DNA from: Candidatus Brocadia sp.
Lineage (GTDB): Bacteria > Planctomycetota > Brocadiia > Brocadiales > Brocadiaceae
NCBI GenBank assembly: GCA_021646415.1
Contig: SOEU01000007.1
Coordinates: 62,001 to 126,000, forward strand
DNA: 64,000 nucleotides
Direction of reading: 5' to 3'
The stretch's first letter is position 1. Every line of letters begins with the position of its first letter. A model generated the notes under the pieces. That model saw nothing but the letters and a program-made list of their open reading frames with translations, searched no databases and was not told the DNA's origin. Below, one piece after another: positions 18,272 through 54,913 of the stretch. The translations under genes and the position numbers were made by a program.

Positions 18272-18424
18272 TAATGTCATTGAATTAAGCGAGAGAGTGT
18301 TTCTCTTCTGGGCAAAGCCCGAAGGGCTGGCAGGATATAGCCCAGGGCGACAGCCCTGGGATAATGATTTAATAATATTTTTAGCCCTGAAAGGGAGACA
18401 TATTATCTTAATTCAATGACATTG
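18272..18424. mobile_element. MITE-like element flanked by 11-bp direct repeats
   Basis: A 153-bp non-coding element. Its ends are inverted repeats (AATGTCATTGAATTAAG and CTTAATTCAATGACATT, 17 matching bases), and it is bracketed by perfect direct repeats CCCATCCAGGG at 18261-18271 and 18425-18435. The interior holds further palindromes (GGGCAAAGCCC, CCCAGGGCGACAGCCCTGGG). The pattern fits a non-autonomous transposon with an 11-bp target-site duplication. No transposase is present in the window. Confidence 0.7.
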
Positions 18425-19256: not shown

Positions 19257-19529
19257 TCATAATAGTAAAGACAAATAACAATCAAGGTTTATTCCCACAA
19301 AACAAAAAAGCCTTACGGCAAAGATATTCTCATCATCTTCGGCAGTAAGGCTGTCTTTATATTTTCCTGTCTCCGTAGGAAAATATTGTAAAGACCCTAT
19401 TACTTTGCGCTCATCAATCGGTTTTTCTAATGGGATGGGTTCTGTAGGCAGTCCAAACCGAGTCCAATCAAAATCGGAAATAAGTTTCTTTTTGATAAAG
19501 TCCTTTTCAATTTCTGTAAAATCCATCAC
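19257..19529 (-). CDS. Unrecognised short reading frame fused to riboswitch remnant
   Basis: A 90-codon frame starting MMDFTEIEKDF. The first 40 or so codons look like genuine protein (FIKKKLISDFDWTRFG), but from about codon 46 the sequence is also the 3' part of a GEMM-like riboswitch and its terminator hairpin, so the last half is probably not real coding sequence. Most likely the truncated start of an unknown gene joined to a broken leader. I do not recognise a family. Confidence 0.3.
   Translation of the reverse strand: MMDFTEIEKDFIKKKLISDFDWTRFGLPTEPIPLEKPIDERKVIGSLQYFPTETGKYKDSLTAEDDENIFAVRLFCFVGINLDCYLSLLL
19303..19410 (-). ncRNA. Truncated GEMM (c-di-GMP-I) riboswitch remnant with terminator
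   Basis: Read on the minus strand: GCGCAAAG, GGTCTTTA, a long P2-like stem (ATATTTTCC/GGAAAATAT), then AGCCTTACTGCCGAAGATG and a terminator hairpin AGCCTTAC..GTAAGGCT with six T. The 3' two-thirds match the intact element at 24605-24752. The 5' CAAACC-tetraloop hairpin is not present, so ligand binding is unlikely. No downstream gene remains intact. Confidence 0.6.
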
Positions 19530-19655: not shown

Positions 19656-19960
19656 ATGGAAGCCTTAGAGAGGCTTTACTTACGGATGAATCAGTCCGCC
19701 GCTGAAAAATCCACTGCAATAATATGTGAAGGCAATTTGGCTCCTGGTGATCAAAGGGATATGGCCTTTAAGGGAAAAATAGCGGTGAGTGGAAGAACAA
19801 AGGGTGTCATTGTAAAGACAGAAGTGCAAACAATCCTCGGTCAGATTACAGAAAAGACCAAAGAGATGTTACCGATACCCCTGTTCAGGACAAACCTGAA
19901 CGGTTTGCAAAATTGGCAGGAATTGTTATATCTGGTTATCCGTTTTACCACAACTAAACT
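19656..19960 (+). pseudogene. Cation-transporting P-type ATPase fragment
   Basis: Parts of the actuator domain are readable across frames: SLREALLTDES (LTGES motif, Gly to Asp), then SAAEKSTAIICEGNLAPGDQ, RDMAFKGKIAVSGRTKGV, TILGQITEKTKEM and, after another shift, DTPVQDKPERFAKLAG. No P-type phosphorylation site (DKTGT) or nucleotide-binding domain is present. It is an isolated relic of about 100 codons with at least two frameshifts, on the opposite strand to its neighbours. Confidence 0.7.
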
Positions 19961-20196
19961 TTAGGTCTTAGCTTATTACCACGTAGTACCCGAATATCTT
20001 GATCCCTAACTGGTGTAATGTTCATCGAAGCCCCCATATTCTACTATATAACGGGGCAGTTGTAGTAAACCGGATAACCACATTGTTCTATTTATGAAAA
20101 GCGCAACTGGGAAGGTACTTGATATGTGCACCGGGTCTGCAACTGGTAACAGTTCTAAGAAGAAAGAGATATTCCTTATTACAAAGAGTAAAAAGC

Positions 20197-20229
20197 AACG
20201 AAGCAATCTTAAACAAAGATTGCTTCGTT
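20197..20229. repeat. 14-bp inverted repeat
   Basis: AACGAAGCAATCTT and AAGATTGCTTCGTT around a short loop. Resembles dispersed palindromes; no U tract follows. Confidence 0.65.
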
Positions 20230-20284
20230 ATGCCTCATAATGACGATTGCATGCCAATTCATTTAAATTCAGAGTAAATTTACA

Positions 20285-20437
20285 TATGGCTCACATCCCA
20301 AAACATTAAATGTCTTTCAGCAGACAGAACCACACTCCCCACGATAATAGGGGTGACCATCGTCATCAGTAATCTCTCGGAACCTCCTTTATTACACCAC
20401 GACCCTTTACAATTCCAGCATAATCATTCATTCCCGT
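20285..20437 (-). pseudogene. arsM remnant (second copy, 3' part)
   Basis: The minus strand reads ITDDDGHPYYRGECGSVC, stop, KTFNVL and CEPYVNL. This parallels residues of the intact ArsM at 11737-12888 (EITDDDGHRYRRG, VCRKTFNILCREPYANHF). It has a CGA-to-TGA type stop and small frame changes, and nucleotide identity to 11890-12060 is obvious by eye. It lies just downstream of mscL, so mscL and aqpZ sit between this remnant and the arsS remnant. Confidence 0.8.
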
Positions 20438-22136: not shown

Positions 22137-23210
22137 TTAATGAACATTTTTTATTGCCAAATCCTTGAAAAAGAATTTAACCTTCATATTGGCAAAGGGT
22201 TTCCCATCGACTTCCCCATATGGATATATGAAAAAGTTTAAGGGTTCAGCGTTTTGAGGTGGGTTTAAAACAATGTCACGTCCAATGGTAAACTGCACTC
22301 GATTTTCGTCATGTGCACCGAAGAAATATTCTCTCCTTGCCGGATCCTTATAAGCTTCTGAAACATCTACAGGGACCCAGCCGTATCCTTTCAGATAAAA
22401 TTCCGCCCAGCAATGATAGCCACCAATTTCGTCTTGACCACTCTTTGCCGGGAGAGAAAATCCGATTGCGAATTTTGCTGGAATACCAACAGCACGGCAA
22501 AATCCGATAAATACGGCATGAAAATCGGTGCAATTCCCACGCTTCACATCGCACGCATAGCAAATATCGCCGCGTCCCCAGCCAGTCCCGCTCTTATCGT
22601 AAGTAAGATTGGCAATAGTGTAATCATAGATCACGCGCGCCTTCTCTAAATCAGAAATTTTGCCTTGAGTGACTCCCTCAGCAAGTTTTTTTATACGGTC
22701 ATCGATAGGCACAAGCCTATCCGGCTGAAGCCACTGTTGCAGCATCGAATCGAAATCATTTCGGACTCGAATGTGCACCTGATCAAAATCTCTCCGAATG
22801 TATTCATAGCGCTTTACCCGAAATTTCATCTCGACCTCTATTGAGCGATTCTCCGGATTTATCACAGAAAAGTGCAGGATGGAATTACCGTACTTAGGGT
22901 CCTTGTAAATCTTTGAAGGATAGGGTGCCGAAATCAATAATGGAGTAATTTTTTGATTCGCATCACTCTTTGGATATGGCATCCAGATTGATACTTTTTT
23001 AGCACCTCCAGGAATATCATTGATCTCTGCAATATAGGTAAATTCGAATGTTCTCACCCTTGGAGCATTTGCAGCCTCTGACATCCTTAAGAAAAATGTG
23101 CAAAAAATTGCAAGATAAGCAACGGCGCAGGCTATTCCGGGCTTCATATGATGTTTTCTTAAGAATTTCTGTAGATAACCGGTAGAGCGAAAAAACTCTT
23201 CGCTCTCCAT
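22137..23210 (-). CDS. Exported transglutaminase-like protein
   Basis: A 357-residue protein (or about 336 if it starts at the in-frame ATG at 23147, which directly precedes a signal-like segment, ACAVAYLAIFCTFFL). The transglutaminase-like core shows the catalytic triad in context: RGNCTDFHAVFIGFCRAVGIP (Cys), GYHCWAEFYLKG (His) and WVPVDVSEA (Asp). The N-terminal beta-rich part has TYIAEINDIPGGAKKV, typical of bacterial exported members. Such proteins are thought to cleave or crosslink peptides in the envelope. It stands alone between repeats and the arsS remnant. Confidence 0.85.
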   Translation of the reverse strand: MESEEFFRSTGYLQKFLRKHHMKPGIACAVAYLAIFCTFFLRMSEAANAPRVRTFEFTYIAEINDIPGGAKKVSIWMPYPKSDANQKITPLLISAPYPSKIYKDPKYGNSILHFSVINPENRSIEVEMKFRVKRYEYIRRDFDQVHIRVRNDFDSMLQQWLQPDRLVPIDDRIKKLAEGVTQGKISDLEKARVIYDYTIANLTYDKSGTGWGRGDICYACDVKRGNCTDFHAVFIGFCRAVGIPAKFAIGFSLPAKSGQDEIGGYHCWAEFYLKGYGWVPVDVSEAYKDPARREYFFGAHDENRVQFTIGRDIVLNPPQNAEPLNFFIYPYGEVDGKPFANMKVKFFFKDLAIKNVH

Positions 23211-23668: not shown

Positions 23669-24205
23669 TTAAGGGTATCCAGGATGCTCCCTCTTCGTAG
23701 GTTTGGGATATTCCTTTTCAATTAGGATAGCCTTCTTCTCCCAGAGGTCTTTCTTTTTATTATAGTCCCAGGTATAATTCTCTTTGCCGTTCACCTTGTG
23801 GACGGAAATGCTCGTTTTATCAACCCTCAAATTACCCTTGTTTGTACCCTGTACAAAGAAGTCCAGGTCATACCTGTTACCGTCTTTCCCTTTGAAGTCG
23901 GCGCAGACAAAATATTCATCGGTTTTTGTCGGAGAGAGCTTATCCTTATGCACCTTGTCAAGCATCAATTCTAAATATTTTCCTGTGTTCTTATCGAGAT
24001 ACTTGAAAACACCTTCTTTGGAATTTTTTCGAACGTATTCCTCGGCAAATTTTGCCACATCCTCTTTGGTTATCCGTGGTTTTTCTTCCACCATTTGTTC
24101 TGGATGCTCTCTACCGAATAGAGTAGATGAAGTGCCAAATCCTAACATTATCGTTAAGACCACTATTGCAATCGAACCTTTTCTTAATATCATGGATAAA
24201 TTCAT
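23669..24205 (-). CDS. Exported protein of unknown function
   Basis: A 178-residue protein. The ATG at 24205 is chosen because AAAGGAG lies eight bases upstream; the frame is open further but without a signal. A signal peptide (about 1-31, IAIVVLTIMLGFGTSSTLFG) is followed by REHPEQMVEEKP. A charged domain follows with YVRKNSKEGVFKYLDKNTGK, DEYFVCADFKGKDG and LRVDKTSISVHKVNGKEN, a beta-rich pattern. No family is recognised. The stretch REHPEQ resembles DHPEQK in the small exported protein encoded upstream. It may be controlled by the c-di-GMP riboswitch about 400 bases upstream. Confidence 0.7.
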   Translation of the reverse strand: MNLSMILRKGSIAIVVLTIMLGFGTSSTLFGREHPEQMVEEKPRITKEDVAKFAEEYVRKNSKEGVFKYLDKNTGKYLELMLDKVHKDKLSPTKTDEYFVCADFKGKDGNRYDLDFFVQGTNKGNLRVDKTSISVHKVNGKENYTWDYNKKKDLWEKKAILIEKEYPKPTKREHPGYP

Positions 24206-24401
24206 GATTGAATCTCCTTTATCAAAAGGTGAACGAATCCGTAGTGGCAGTTGAATCCTGAAAGAATAACTGCCAGTTGCCATATAATTTCACCGGCAAC
24301 AGAGATACAAAAAAAGCATCAATTCCTGTTTTGTACCACCTCCATTCCTGAAATATTGCTTTGGAAAAAGCCACAGATGTGCAGACTCAGAACGTTTTCA
24401 G

Positions 24402-24432
24402 TTAGTACCGCCAGCTATACTGGCGGTACTAA
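24402..24432. terminator. 13-bp palindrome overlapping the end of a small gene
   Basis: TTAGTACCGCCAG, a five-base loop and CTGGCGGTACTAA. It starts at the TAG of the small gene on the minus strand. No T run follows, so it may stabilise an RNA end or attenuate rather than terminate fully. Confidence 0.45.
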
Positions 24433-24584
24433 TTTTCTTTCGCGTGCACCTTTTGCTCAGGATGGTCTGCGGATGCTATATGTAAAGTGTTTGTTTCCAA
24501 AGGAATTAATGCGATTCCGACATATATCATCAATACGGCCACCACACGGGGTAATCTTTTCTCCAGTATTCTGGATAAGCACAC
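24429..24584 (-). CDS. Small exported peptide behind the c-di-GMP riboswitch
   Basis: A 51-residue frame starting with GTG at 24584; GGGAGA lies seven bases upstream. It has a basic N-terminus, a hydrophobic core (VVAVLMIYVGIALIPLE) and the short tail DHPEQKVHAKEN, so it resembles a signal peptide plus a 12-residue mature part. The tail resembles the mature N-terminus of the 178-residue protein downstream (REHPEQMVEEKP), so it may be a truncated paralogue or a real small peptide. It begins 20 bases after the riboswitch terminator. Confidence 0.5.
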   Translation of the reverse strand: MCLSRILEKRLPRVVAVLMIYVGIALIPLETNTLHIASADHPEQKVHAKEN

Positions 24585-24604: not shown

Positions 24605-24752
24605 AAACAAAAAAGCCTTACTGCAAAGATATTCATTCAAACATCTTCGGCAGTAAGGCTATCTTTTTATAAAGCAGTTTAAACTATTTAAACTGTTTAA
24701 CAAGACCTTTACTTTGCGTCCCCTGATTGCCCAGGGTTTGCCTTTATCGTAA
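24605..24752 (-). promoter_or_regulatory. Cyclic-di-GMP-I (GEMM) riboswitch with intrinsic terminator
   Basis: On the minus strand the element reads GGCAAACC, a hairpin CCTGG-GCAA-TCAGG with a GCAA tetraloop, GGGACGCAAAG, GGTCTTG, a second variable stem (CAGTTTAAA..TTTAAACTG) and AGCCTTACTGCCGAAG. These match GEMM-I landmarks (CAAACC, GNRA-capped stem, GGGACGCAAAG, receptor-side AGC..TGCCG). The 3' strand AGCCTTACTGC also pairs with GCAGTAAGGCT (24614-24660), followed by six T, so aptamer and terminator are mutually exclusive. The base equivalent to Vc2 G20 appears to be G, favouring c-di-GMP over cGAMP. It would control the small peptide and perhaps the 178-residue exported protein. Confidence 0.85.
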
Positions 24753-24787: not shown

Positions 24788-24817
24788 TCTATAGTATTTT
24801 TATGTACTTAATTTCAA
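24788..24817 (-). promoter_or_regulatory. Promoter of the riboswitch transcript
   Basis: Minus strand -35 TTGAAA (24812-24817), an 18-base spacer and -10 TATAGA (24788-24793). The expected transcription start falls about 30 bases before the aptamer. Confidence 0.55.
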
Positions 24818-52744: not shown

Positions 52745-54913
52745 TTAATTTTCGCTCGATAATGGAATAAACTCTCGTGTAATGTTACTTTTCGTATTTG
52801 ATAGATGCGTATTTTTCTGCCTCAATAAGTTTGTAATTTCTTCAGCCTTCATAGGACTGTATAACAGGTAGCCCTGTATATAATCACACTGATACAACCG
52901 CAACAATTCCAACTGCCTTTGCGTTTCCACCCCCTCTGCAATTACCTTTATTTTAAGGGAGTGCGCCATGTCTATGATAGCTTTGACAATTGCTGAAGCA
53001 TCTGTATTAATGGCAATATCTAAAATTAAAGACCGATCAATTTTTAATGTACTGAACGGAAGATTTTTCAGGTTATGTATTGAAGAAAAACCGATGCCAA
53101 AATCATCCATCATGAGCTGTATTTTCATATCATTCAATTCTTTAAATATTTCGAGGACTAGCTCTTTGCTTTCCATGACCGTACTTTCGGTAATTTCCAA
53201 TTTAAAGACATCGGCCGACAACCCGGTGTTTTTAATTGTTGTCCTGACCAGTTCCGGTAATTCCTTGTGTCGAAGTTGTAAGGCTGATACGTTAACACTA
53301 ATAATTATATTTGAAAATCCCATGTCATGCCACACCTTGTTTTGAGCACACGCATTTTGTATTACCCAATGACCGATTTTATCGATCATTCTGGTTTCCT
53401 CTGCCAGCGGGATGAACTCATCAGGCAGAATTAAACCACGTTGAGGATGCTGCCAGCGAATGAGTGATTCCAAACCAACAATCTCATCACGTGTTGATGA
53501 CACAATGGGTTGATAATAAATTACTAATTCTGAGTGTTCAATAGCACGCCAGAGATCGGCTTCTAACTGTAAATAATTCATTGCCTTGGCATGCATTTCC
53601 GTATTAAATATCACATACCGTGCTTTACCATGCATCTTTGCCCGGTACATTGTTATATCAGCGTCCCTCAGGATATCCTCCGGGCGATTATAAAATTCGC
53701 CTTTTAAGACAATTCCAATACTTGCCGAGGCAACTATTCTATGGCCATCAAGAATGAAAGGCTCCTTCAAGGCTTCCAGGATTCTTTCTGCCACAAATTT
53801 TGCGTTAAAATTGTCATCTATATTATCAAGAAGAATTGCAAATTCATCTCCTCCAAAACGAGCAACGGTATCTGACTTCCGCAAGCACTCTTCCAGTTTT
53901 TTCGCGATTAAGATCAGTAATTTATCACCCACAAGATGACCGAGGCTGTCATTTACAACCTTGAAACGGTCAAGATCAAGAAATAATACCGAAAATAAAC
54001 AGTTTTTATCTCTTTTTGCATGCTCAATTAATCGCTCCAAACGCTCCATAAAAAGATTCCTGTTGGGCAGGTTCGTCAACGGATCGTGAAATGCAGTGTG
54101 TCTCAGTTGATCACGATATACTCGTAAACGTTCGATCATATGGTTGAAAGCACACGCAAAATCTGAAATTTCATCATTCGTGTAAACGGTAATATGCTGT
54201 TCGAATATTCCTTCAGAAATTTTTTTTGTTGCTAAATTCAACTTCTTGAGAGGGGCGGTAATTTTTTTTGTAAGAAATAAAGTGAAAATAACCCCTACGA
54301 AGACAAAGAGAGAGGTAAAAACTAATGCAGACATCTGGAATTGGTTTATTCTTTTATGAAGATTTTCAAGGGACAATCCAAGTTGAATGTATCCTATAAT
54401 CTCCGGATTTGTATTTTTTTGATTGGTTACCAATGTATCTGTTGGTTTTTTGTCGGGAACGATAATCACAGGAGACAGAACGTCAATATACCGTTTTCCA
54501 TCTTCTTTATTGACGAATTCTTTATACAGTATTTTTCCTTGTGAACCGGAATCTATGAAACTCACGGCAGGTGATGGGGGAATTTTTAGCCCACATTTAA
54601 AGCTTTTGTGCATGAGTAGCTTTTTATCTTTATTGAGAAGGCATACATAAGCAACATCTTCATCTACTTCCAGACTCTCAACGATCTGTTTCATAGATTC
54701 TTTATCCCCTGTATAGATGCAATATTCACTTGATTGAGATGCCATGCTGGCAATAACTAAGCCATGTCTTACAAGGTTGTTGTATTTGTAAGAAACTACA
54801 TTGTGTATAAGAAAAAAGCTGATTCCTGCCGAAGTCACCAGGATAATGAGAATGGTTAAAAGATTAAATTTGGTTGCTATGCTAATTCGTCTCTTTGCTT
54901 TTGAGGCAAACAT
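52745..54913 (-). CDS. Membrane diguanylate cyclase/phosphodiesterase (HAMP-GGDEF-EAL)
   Basis: A 722-residue protein. TM1 (about 15-37), a periplasmic sensor, TM2 (about 190-215), HAMP (LNLATKKISEGIFEQHITVY), GGDEF with HDPLTNLPNRNLFMERLERL, allosteric-site RKSD and active site RFGGDEFAILL, and EAL with YYQPIVSSTRDEIVGLESLI, NVSALQLRH, EITESTVME, DDFGIGFSS and EGVET. All catalytic residues needed for both activities appear present. It turns over c-di-GMP in response to a periplasmic signal. Its start lies four bases from the preceding binding-protein gene, so it is one operon with the TonB receptor. Confidence 0.93.
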   Translation of the reverse strand: MFASKAKRRISIATKFNLLTILIILVTSAGISFFLIHNVVSYKYNNLVRHGLVIASMASQSSEYCIYTGDKESMKQIVESLEVDEDVAYVCLLNKDKKLLMHKSFKCGLKIPPSPAVSFIDSGSQGKILYKEFVNKEDGKRYIDVLSPVIIVPDKKPTDTLVTNQKNTNPEIIGYIQLGLSLENLHKRINQFQMSALVFTSLFVFVGVIFTLFLTKKITAPLKKLNLATKKISEGIFEQHITVYTNDEISDFACAFNHMIERLRVYRDQLRHTAFHDPLTNLPNRNLFMERLERLIEHAKRDKNCLFSVLFLDLDRFKVVNDSLGHLVGDKLLILIAKKLEECLRKSDTVARFGGDEFAILLDNIDDNFNAKFVAERILEALKEPFILDGHRIVASASIGIVLKGEFYNRPEDILRDADITMYRAKMHGKARYVIFNTEMHAKAMNYLQLEADLWRAIEHSELVIYYQPIVSSTRDEIVGLESLIRWQHPQRGLILPDEFIPLAEETRMIDKIGHWVIQNACAQNKVWHDMGFSNIIISVNVSALQLRHKELPELVRTTIKNTGLSADVFKLEITESTVMESKELVLEIFKELNDMKIQLMMDDFGIGFSSIHNLKNLPFSTLKIDRSLILDIAINTDASAIVKAIIDMAHSLKIKVIAEGVETQRQLELLRLYQCDYIQGYLLYSPMKAEEITNLLRQKNTHLSNTKSNITREFIPLSSEN

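Follow-up and report, generated by a model that had tools for sequence, protein, structure and literature searches.

The minus strand of the window, a stretch of 64,000 nucleotides from a Candidatus Brocadia genome, carries a genuine member of the c-di-GMP-I (GEMM) riboswitch family. Membership as such is ordinary; the scale and the uniformity of the regulon to which this copy belongs are not, and are of more interest. The element is very probably a transcriptional ON-type c-di-GMP-I riboswitch, and one and the same cassette of aptamer and terminator would wire about 45 loci of the genome to a single signal. The first-pass annotation had treated the window switch on its own, a view amended here, as it is one of about 45 near-identical cassettes. 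From the comparisons below we infer the identity of the ligand, the direction of switching and the physiological role of the cassette.

Aptamer and promoter

A covariance-model search of the minus strand with RF01051 returns a significant match from 24752 to 24646 (E = 1.7e-8), which spans all 87 positions of the model and scores 57.0 bits against a gathering cut-off of 35 bits, in agreement with the class proposed by the first-pass annotation. A second model, covering aptamer and terminator (the cassette model) and built from own-genome copies with the window copy among them, gives 150.6 bits to 24608–24752 and places it fifth best of all own-genome copies. The 148-nt stretch folds with −51.4 kcal/mol, 6.4 standard deviations below 200 dinucleotide shuffles, none of which is equally stable. 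Read along the minus strand, the order of elements is TTGAAA, 18 nt, TATAGA, GGCAAACC, the GCAA-capped stem, GGGACGCAAAG, a long second stem, AGCCTTACTGCCGAAG, GCAGTAAGGCT and a run of T's (Table 1); the promoter, the GNRA-capped P2, the second stem, the CCTTACTGCC strand and the 11-bp terminator thus all lie where they had first been read.

Table 1. Features of the riboswitch locus and related elements of the window (gene starts from a custom gene finder)
Feature	Positions	Strand	Details
Promoter TTGAAA-18-TATAGA	24788–24817	−	Read directly; TTGAAA 24817–24812, TATAGA 24793–24788
c-di-GMP-I (GEMM) aptamer	24646–24752	−	RF01051, 57.0 bits, E = 1.7e-8, positions 1–87
G equivalent to Vc2 G20 (presumed ligand contact)	24741	−	G in 39/39 aligned own-genome copies
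P2 stem with GCAA (GNRA) tetraloop cap	24721–24736	−	Two-sided changes in all 6 pairs
P strand AGTAAAGG, 5' side of lower P3	24706–24713	−	Aptamer-state partner is the A strand
A strand AGCCTTACTGC, common to aptamer and terminator	24650–24660	−	24650 is the C92 equivalent; pairs with P or H
H strand GCAGTAAGGCT and T run, intrinsic terminator	24609–24624	−	11-bp A:H helix; minimum-energy fold
Truncated first gene, 51-codon exported ORF, GTG start	24429–24584	−	Intact in relatives
15-bp palindrome, holds stop codon of truncated gene	24400–24434		Perfect; terminator-like on the plus strand
Second gene, exported protein of 178 aa and paralogue of the first	23669–24205	−	Homologues in 11/24 relatives
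Exported transglutaminase-like protein	22137–23210	−	PF01841, 7.6e-28; follows in several relatives' loci
Decayed second cassette	19303–19431	−	Cassette model 76.4 bits, E = 1.8e-16; missed by RF01051
sCache-HAMP-GGDEF-EAL enzyme	52745–54913	−	PF00990 5.2e-47, PF00563 8.6e-72

The conserved positions of the aptamer were examined in 39 copies from the window genome. All six pairs of P2 are changed on both sides, with 99.1% of cells paired, and a GNRA loop caps P2 in 36 of the 37 own aptamers examined. The aptamer core GACGCAAAG is invariant across the 39 copies, and the C92 equivalent is C in every one of them. A strong hairpin followed by a T run would also be present in an ordinary intrinsic terminator that resembles GEMM by chance, but the RF01051 match over 87 positions refutes such an origin and, together with the invariant core and the covarying P2, leaves it a negligible probability.

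The promoter is weak by consensus and escaped the promoter scan because its second hexamer has no final T. Both hexamers and the 18-nt spacing are kept in two congeners, G005 and the riboswitch-less G001, and this conservation makes the element, read directly on the minus strand, probably the real promoter. A TATAAA closer to the aptamer, 26 nt before the GGCAAA core, offers an alternative, but G005 does not keep it and G001 lacks it.

Competing helices and ligand

The A strand is shared by two helices. It pairs either with P, in the lower part of P3, or with H (24624–24614), which takes up the C92 equivalent at 24650 as well; since the terminator takes the A strand including C92, aptamer and terminator are mutually exclusive. 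Both pairings, that of the aptamer and that of the competing terminator put forward in the first reading, are kept across the 39 own-genome copies, with 97.3% of aptamer cells and 98.5% of terminator cells paired (95.9% for the P:A helix, 98.4% for the A:H helix), the two former values lying above every shuffle and slid control. Two-sided changes are found in 9 aptamer pairs (shuffle mean 2.8) and 9 terminator pairs (2.1). Within the genome the covariation of P:A is thin because the copies are near-identical and the A strand is almost invariant, and 8 of the 39 have a mismatch at position 42/99. In the Candidatus B. pituitae orthologue of copy R42, a three-way change from TAT to GCG in P, A and H retains both helices.

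Of 43 copies folded at full length, 41 form the terminator in the minimum-energy structure and 40 sequester C92. When transcripts are cut before H, the P:A helix is part of the minimum-energy fold in 31 of the 43, window copy included; it is missing from the other 12, and folding without ligand may therefore be loose.

In the mechanism we propose, the polymerase would make the aptamer first. Binding of c-di-GMP would hold P2 and P3 together, keeping the A strand with P and C92 with the ligand, so that H could not capture A, the terminator would not form and the exported-protein genes would be transcribed. With ligand absent, H would displace P, lock C92 in the 11-bp terminator and stop the polymerase at the T run. 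As the same cassette stands at about 45 sites of the genome, one signal should govern an entire suite of genes with surface, matrix, protease, redox and regulatory functions.

The direction of switching is suggested by a characterized relative. In the pilM GEMM-Ib riboswitch of Geobacter metallireducens, an ON switch, the C that pairs with the ligand is sequestered by the terminator (PMC9262584), and in the Brocadia cassette, too, the terminator uses the 3' strand of the aptamer and sequesters that C. The position of C92 within the captured strand, in a layout like that of pilM, leads us to infer that the ligand would turn transcription on. An OFF switch, in which ligand favours termination as in C. 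difficile Cd1, is very improbable: at related-genera loci such as L182 the 3' strand of the terminator repeats the GGGTCTT of the aptamer, a layout that could be OFF, but the terminator here captures the aptamer's own A strand with C92, which is the ON layout of pilM. Loci L182, L186 and L189, which lie in genomes of other genera within the family and order, represent a second GEMM-I subtype with this repeated GGGTCTT, and may be OFF switches, the opposite of the Brocadia cassette.

An A at position 20 marks the cGAMP (GEMM-Ib) class. The window base at 24741, which we take to be the equivalent of Vc2 G20, is G, as the first-pass annotation had read it, and so is its counterpart in each of the 39 own-genome copies; the mark of the cGAMP class is thus missing throughout. 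The same position is G in 55 of 57 copies of a second set, mostly from Candidatus B. pituitae. The genome encodes 12 GGDEF domains and four full EAL domains. Hypr enzymes, which make cGAMP, have Ser in place of the canonical Asp of GGDEF (PMC6456294). That serine occurs in none of the 12 GGDEF domains (11 Asp, 1 Asn), the route to cGAMP that the search covered. G20 and the missing Hypr serine together make c-di-GMP, rather than cGAMP, the likely and best-supported ligand as far as sequence can tell; the preference first read from the G20 position alone is supported independently by the GGDEF domains. Sensing of 3',3'-cGAMP (GEMM-Ib) with an unchanged ON mechanism has a precedent in Geobacter sulfurreducens, where most GEMM-I copies are cGAMP-specific within a similar multi-copy regulon (PMC8835794, PMC6456294), but is improbable in Brocadia in view of the uniform G20, the GGDEF domains devoid of Hypr serine and the intact EAL domains. 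In this respect the cassette probably also differs from pilM, a cGAMP sensor, since its G20, like the missing Hypr enzymes, favours c-di-GMP. The second c-di-GMP class, RF01786, has zero matches in the genome, and zero in the control genomes too, so that the negative carries no weight.

The GGDEF-EAL enzyme that had been noticed in the window is real, with both domains matched on the minus strand; it has an FGGDEF signature, the residue at the Hypr-diagnostic position being Asp, and is a candidate maker or breaker of the riboswitch ligand.

Spread of the cassette and the genes behind it

The window genome contains 45 RF01051 matches in 3.8 Mb, at least 43 of them above the cut-off. The cassette model recovers all 45 of these places and adds at least five decayed remnants, its further weak matches being mostly opposite-strand echoes of the palindromic terminator. 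The genome encodes a hydrazine synthase alpha domain and therefore belongs to an anammox bacterium. RF01051 matches number 20–56 in ten congeners, 1–24 in other genera of the family and 0–10 in other families of the order (lower bounds, part of the candidates having been scored), and at most five in any of the 113 genomes that an even sampling of the phylum draws from outside the family. The exact terminator pattern of the cassette is found in 75 stretches of the genome collection, from Candidatus Brocadia, Candidatus Jettenia, two Candidatus Scalindua bins and other Planctomycetota/Planctomycetia.

The products of the first genes behind the copies include exported SBBP beta-propeller, kelch, Ig-like, DUF11 and CHRD proteins; M4, S8 and M48 peptidases and a caspase-PEGA protein; cytochrome c' and cytochrome P460 proteins; a perchlorate-reductase-like molybdoenzyme together with its iron-sulphur subunit; a protein for polysaccharide synthesis, behind which comes a Wzz-type protein; a UTP-glucose-1-phosphate uridylyltransferase; and two sigma-54 activators and a STAS-PilZ protein. 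The enzyme behind copy R13 was also considered as NxrA or a nitrate reductase, and this was rejected on its match to the perchlorate-reductase-type structure 5e7o (6e-263) versus that to nitrite oxidoreductase 7b04 (3.4e-68). A degenerate copy, R45 (G000 C1:386000–386129, 31.4 bits), lies upstream of a PAS-GAF-GGDEF-EAL protein, where it could provide feedback or could be a copy that binds ligand no more. At 15 loci of the genome, an orthologue stands behind an RF01051 match in Candidatus B. pituitae, and the regulon is therefore partly conserved, with turnover.

Cassettes at orthologous loci of B. pituitae resemble their counterparts hardly more than cassettes at other loci do (median rank 11 of 45), a pattern that copying, gene conversion or strong constraint could each produce. 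A MITE as the spreading vehicle finds no support: inspection of the cassette ends for terminal inverted repeats revealed none, and the one empty site found is missing cassette and gene 1 jointly. The tip of P3 is swapped among a few hairpins in copies R01–R45 (GTTTAAAC palindromes, CCTGC-GCAGG, GAGACGCATTGCAATGCGTCTC and ACAGGGAAGTAG), the rest being constant; that these hairpins are inserted genome-wide repeats is not supported, as most of the listed copies of the GTTTAAAC type and of CCTGC-GCAGG lie inside riboswitches. Two complete cassettes, each with its own terminator, stand in tandem at locus L196 of the window genome (G000 C7:153514–153869) before one exported repeat protein, a natural two-switch gate, and tandem copies of the other subtype are present in B. 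pituitae at 2195100–2195293.

Tentatively, the cassette may have been copied or homogenised to about 45–55 places per Brocadia genome, as a c-di-GMP cis regulon that would control, largely without transcription factors, the surface, matrix and redox programme of anammox aggregation. If true, this would rank with the largest known single-genome regulons of any one riboswitch class.

The genes behind the window's own switch had been called unnamed exported proteins. They are exported, and the description is amended: the two stand in tandem and belong to one family, and here the first of them is truncated. An intact version of about 189 aa lies directly behind the switch, followed by the paralogue, in four relatives (G003, G005, G006 and G007). 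The 15-bp palindrome sits between the two paralogues and is present as a single copy in the 277 kb of genome examined. The exported family of the 178-aa protein matches no Pfam or NCBIfam entry; its predicted structure (mean pLDDT 70) has a confident core of helix and beta-sheet, for which a fold search against the PDB returned no match with E below 0.1. The transglutaminase-like gene is possibly part of the riboswitch-controlled unit.

With its first gene truncated and the palindrome placed after it, the window copy may now have little output. It might even be a relic, its aptamer conserved by descent and controlling no useful product, as the cut to 51 codons before the palindrome, the decayed cassettes in the same genome and the state of G001, where both cassette and gene 1 are lost and that promoter drives gene 2, could be taken to indicate. 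We consider this unlikely, as all ligand-contact and switching positions checked are intact, the cassette model ranks the copy fifth, and gene 2 still lies downstream together with the transglutaminase gene.

Elsewhere in the window, the remnant at 19303–19431 retains the terminator half of a cassette and has lost the half with GGCAAACC and P2; an ORF (19257–19529) runs through it. It adjoins an ECF sigma factor gene, and its insertion into that gene was ruled out because the 5' half of the sigma gene is simply replaced by other DNA. The region 19656–20400, with P-type ATPase-like fragments and the truncated sigma factor gene, has the look of a pseudogene graveyard, and an Acido-Lenti-1 RNA match (RF01687, 53.4 bits against a cut-off of 37) at 18315–18360 on the minus strand adjoins the rearranged region.

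Comparison with known GEMM systems

Like Vibrio cholerae Vc2, the type example of RF01051, the window aptamer matches the model over its full length and has the G20 and C92 equivalents, the GACGCAAAG core and a GNRA-capped P2. The contact between P2 and P3 appears to be of a different kind. GNRA loops have several receptors, CU:AG helices among them. In the Brocadia cassettes, P2 loops of GTGA, GCAA, GCGA or GTAA face a plain GGGTCTT/AAGAC helix of the CU:AG type, and the canonical 11-nt receptor is absent from the own-genome aptamers, whereas in aptamers with a GAAA loop, drawn from further genera in the family or order, P3 has a CTAAR...TATGG receptor in seven of seven cases. The GAAA/11-nt contact thus appears to have been swapped for a GNRA/CU:AG-helix contact in Brocadia.

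Geobacter provides the closest parallel for the arrangement of many GEMM-I copies, including tandem ones, with many exported and redox genes downstream. About 30 GEMM-I copies are present in G. uraniireducens. There are 17 copies in G. sulfurreducens (PMC8835794, PMC6456294), and in G. metallireducens a conserved GEMM sequence occurs at 16 locations (PMC2700814). Unlike these regulons, that of Brocadia comprises at least 43 copies in 3.8 Mb, nearly all with one expression platform down to the terminator strand.

As a molecule, the switch belongs to a known class. In searches of the open literature we found neither a paper on GEMM riboswitches in anammox bacteria nor an earlier description of a wiring of some 45 copies such as the genome sequence indicates. 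Anammox bacteria have few regulators that are accessible to genetic tests. They live in granules and biofilms, and there are no pure cultures (PMC11224092). A regulon legible in the sequence, in which one signal has about 45 marked outputs, would make the control of matrix, adhesion and redox proteins by c-di-GMP testable, and one riboswitch design placed before dozens of genes would offer a natural series for the spread, decay and tuning of riboswitches.
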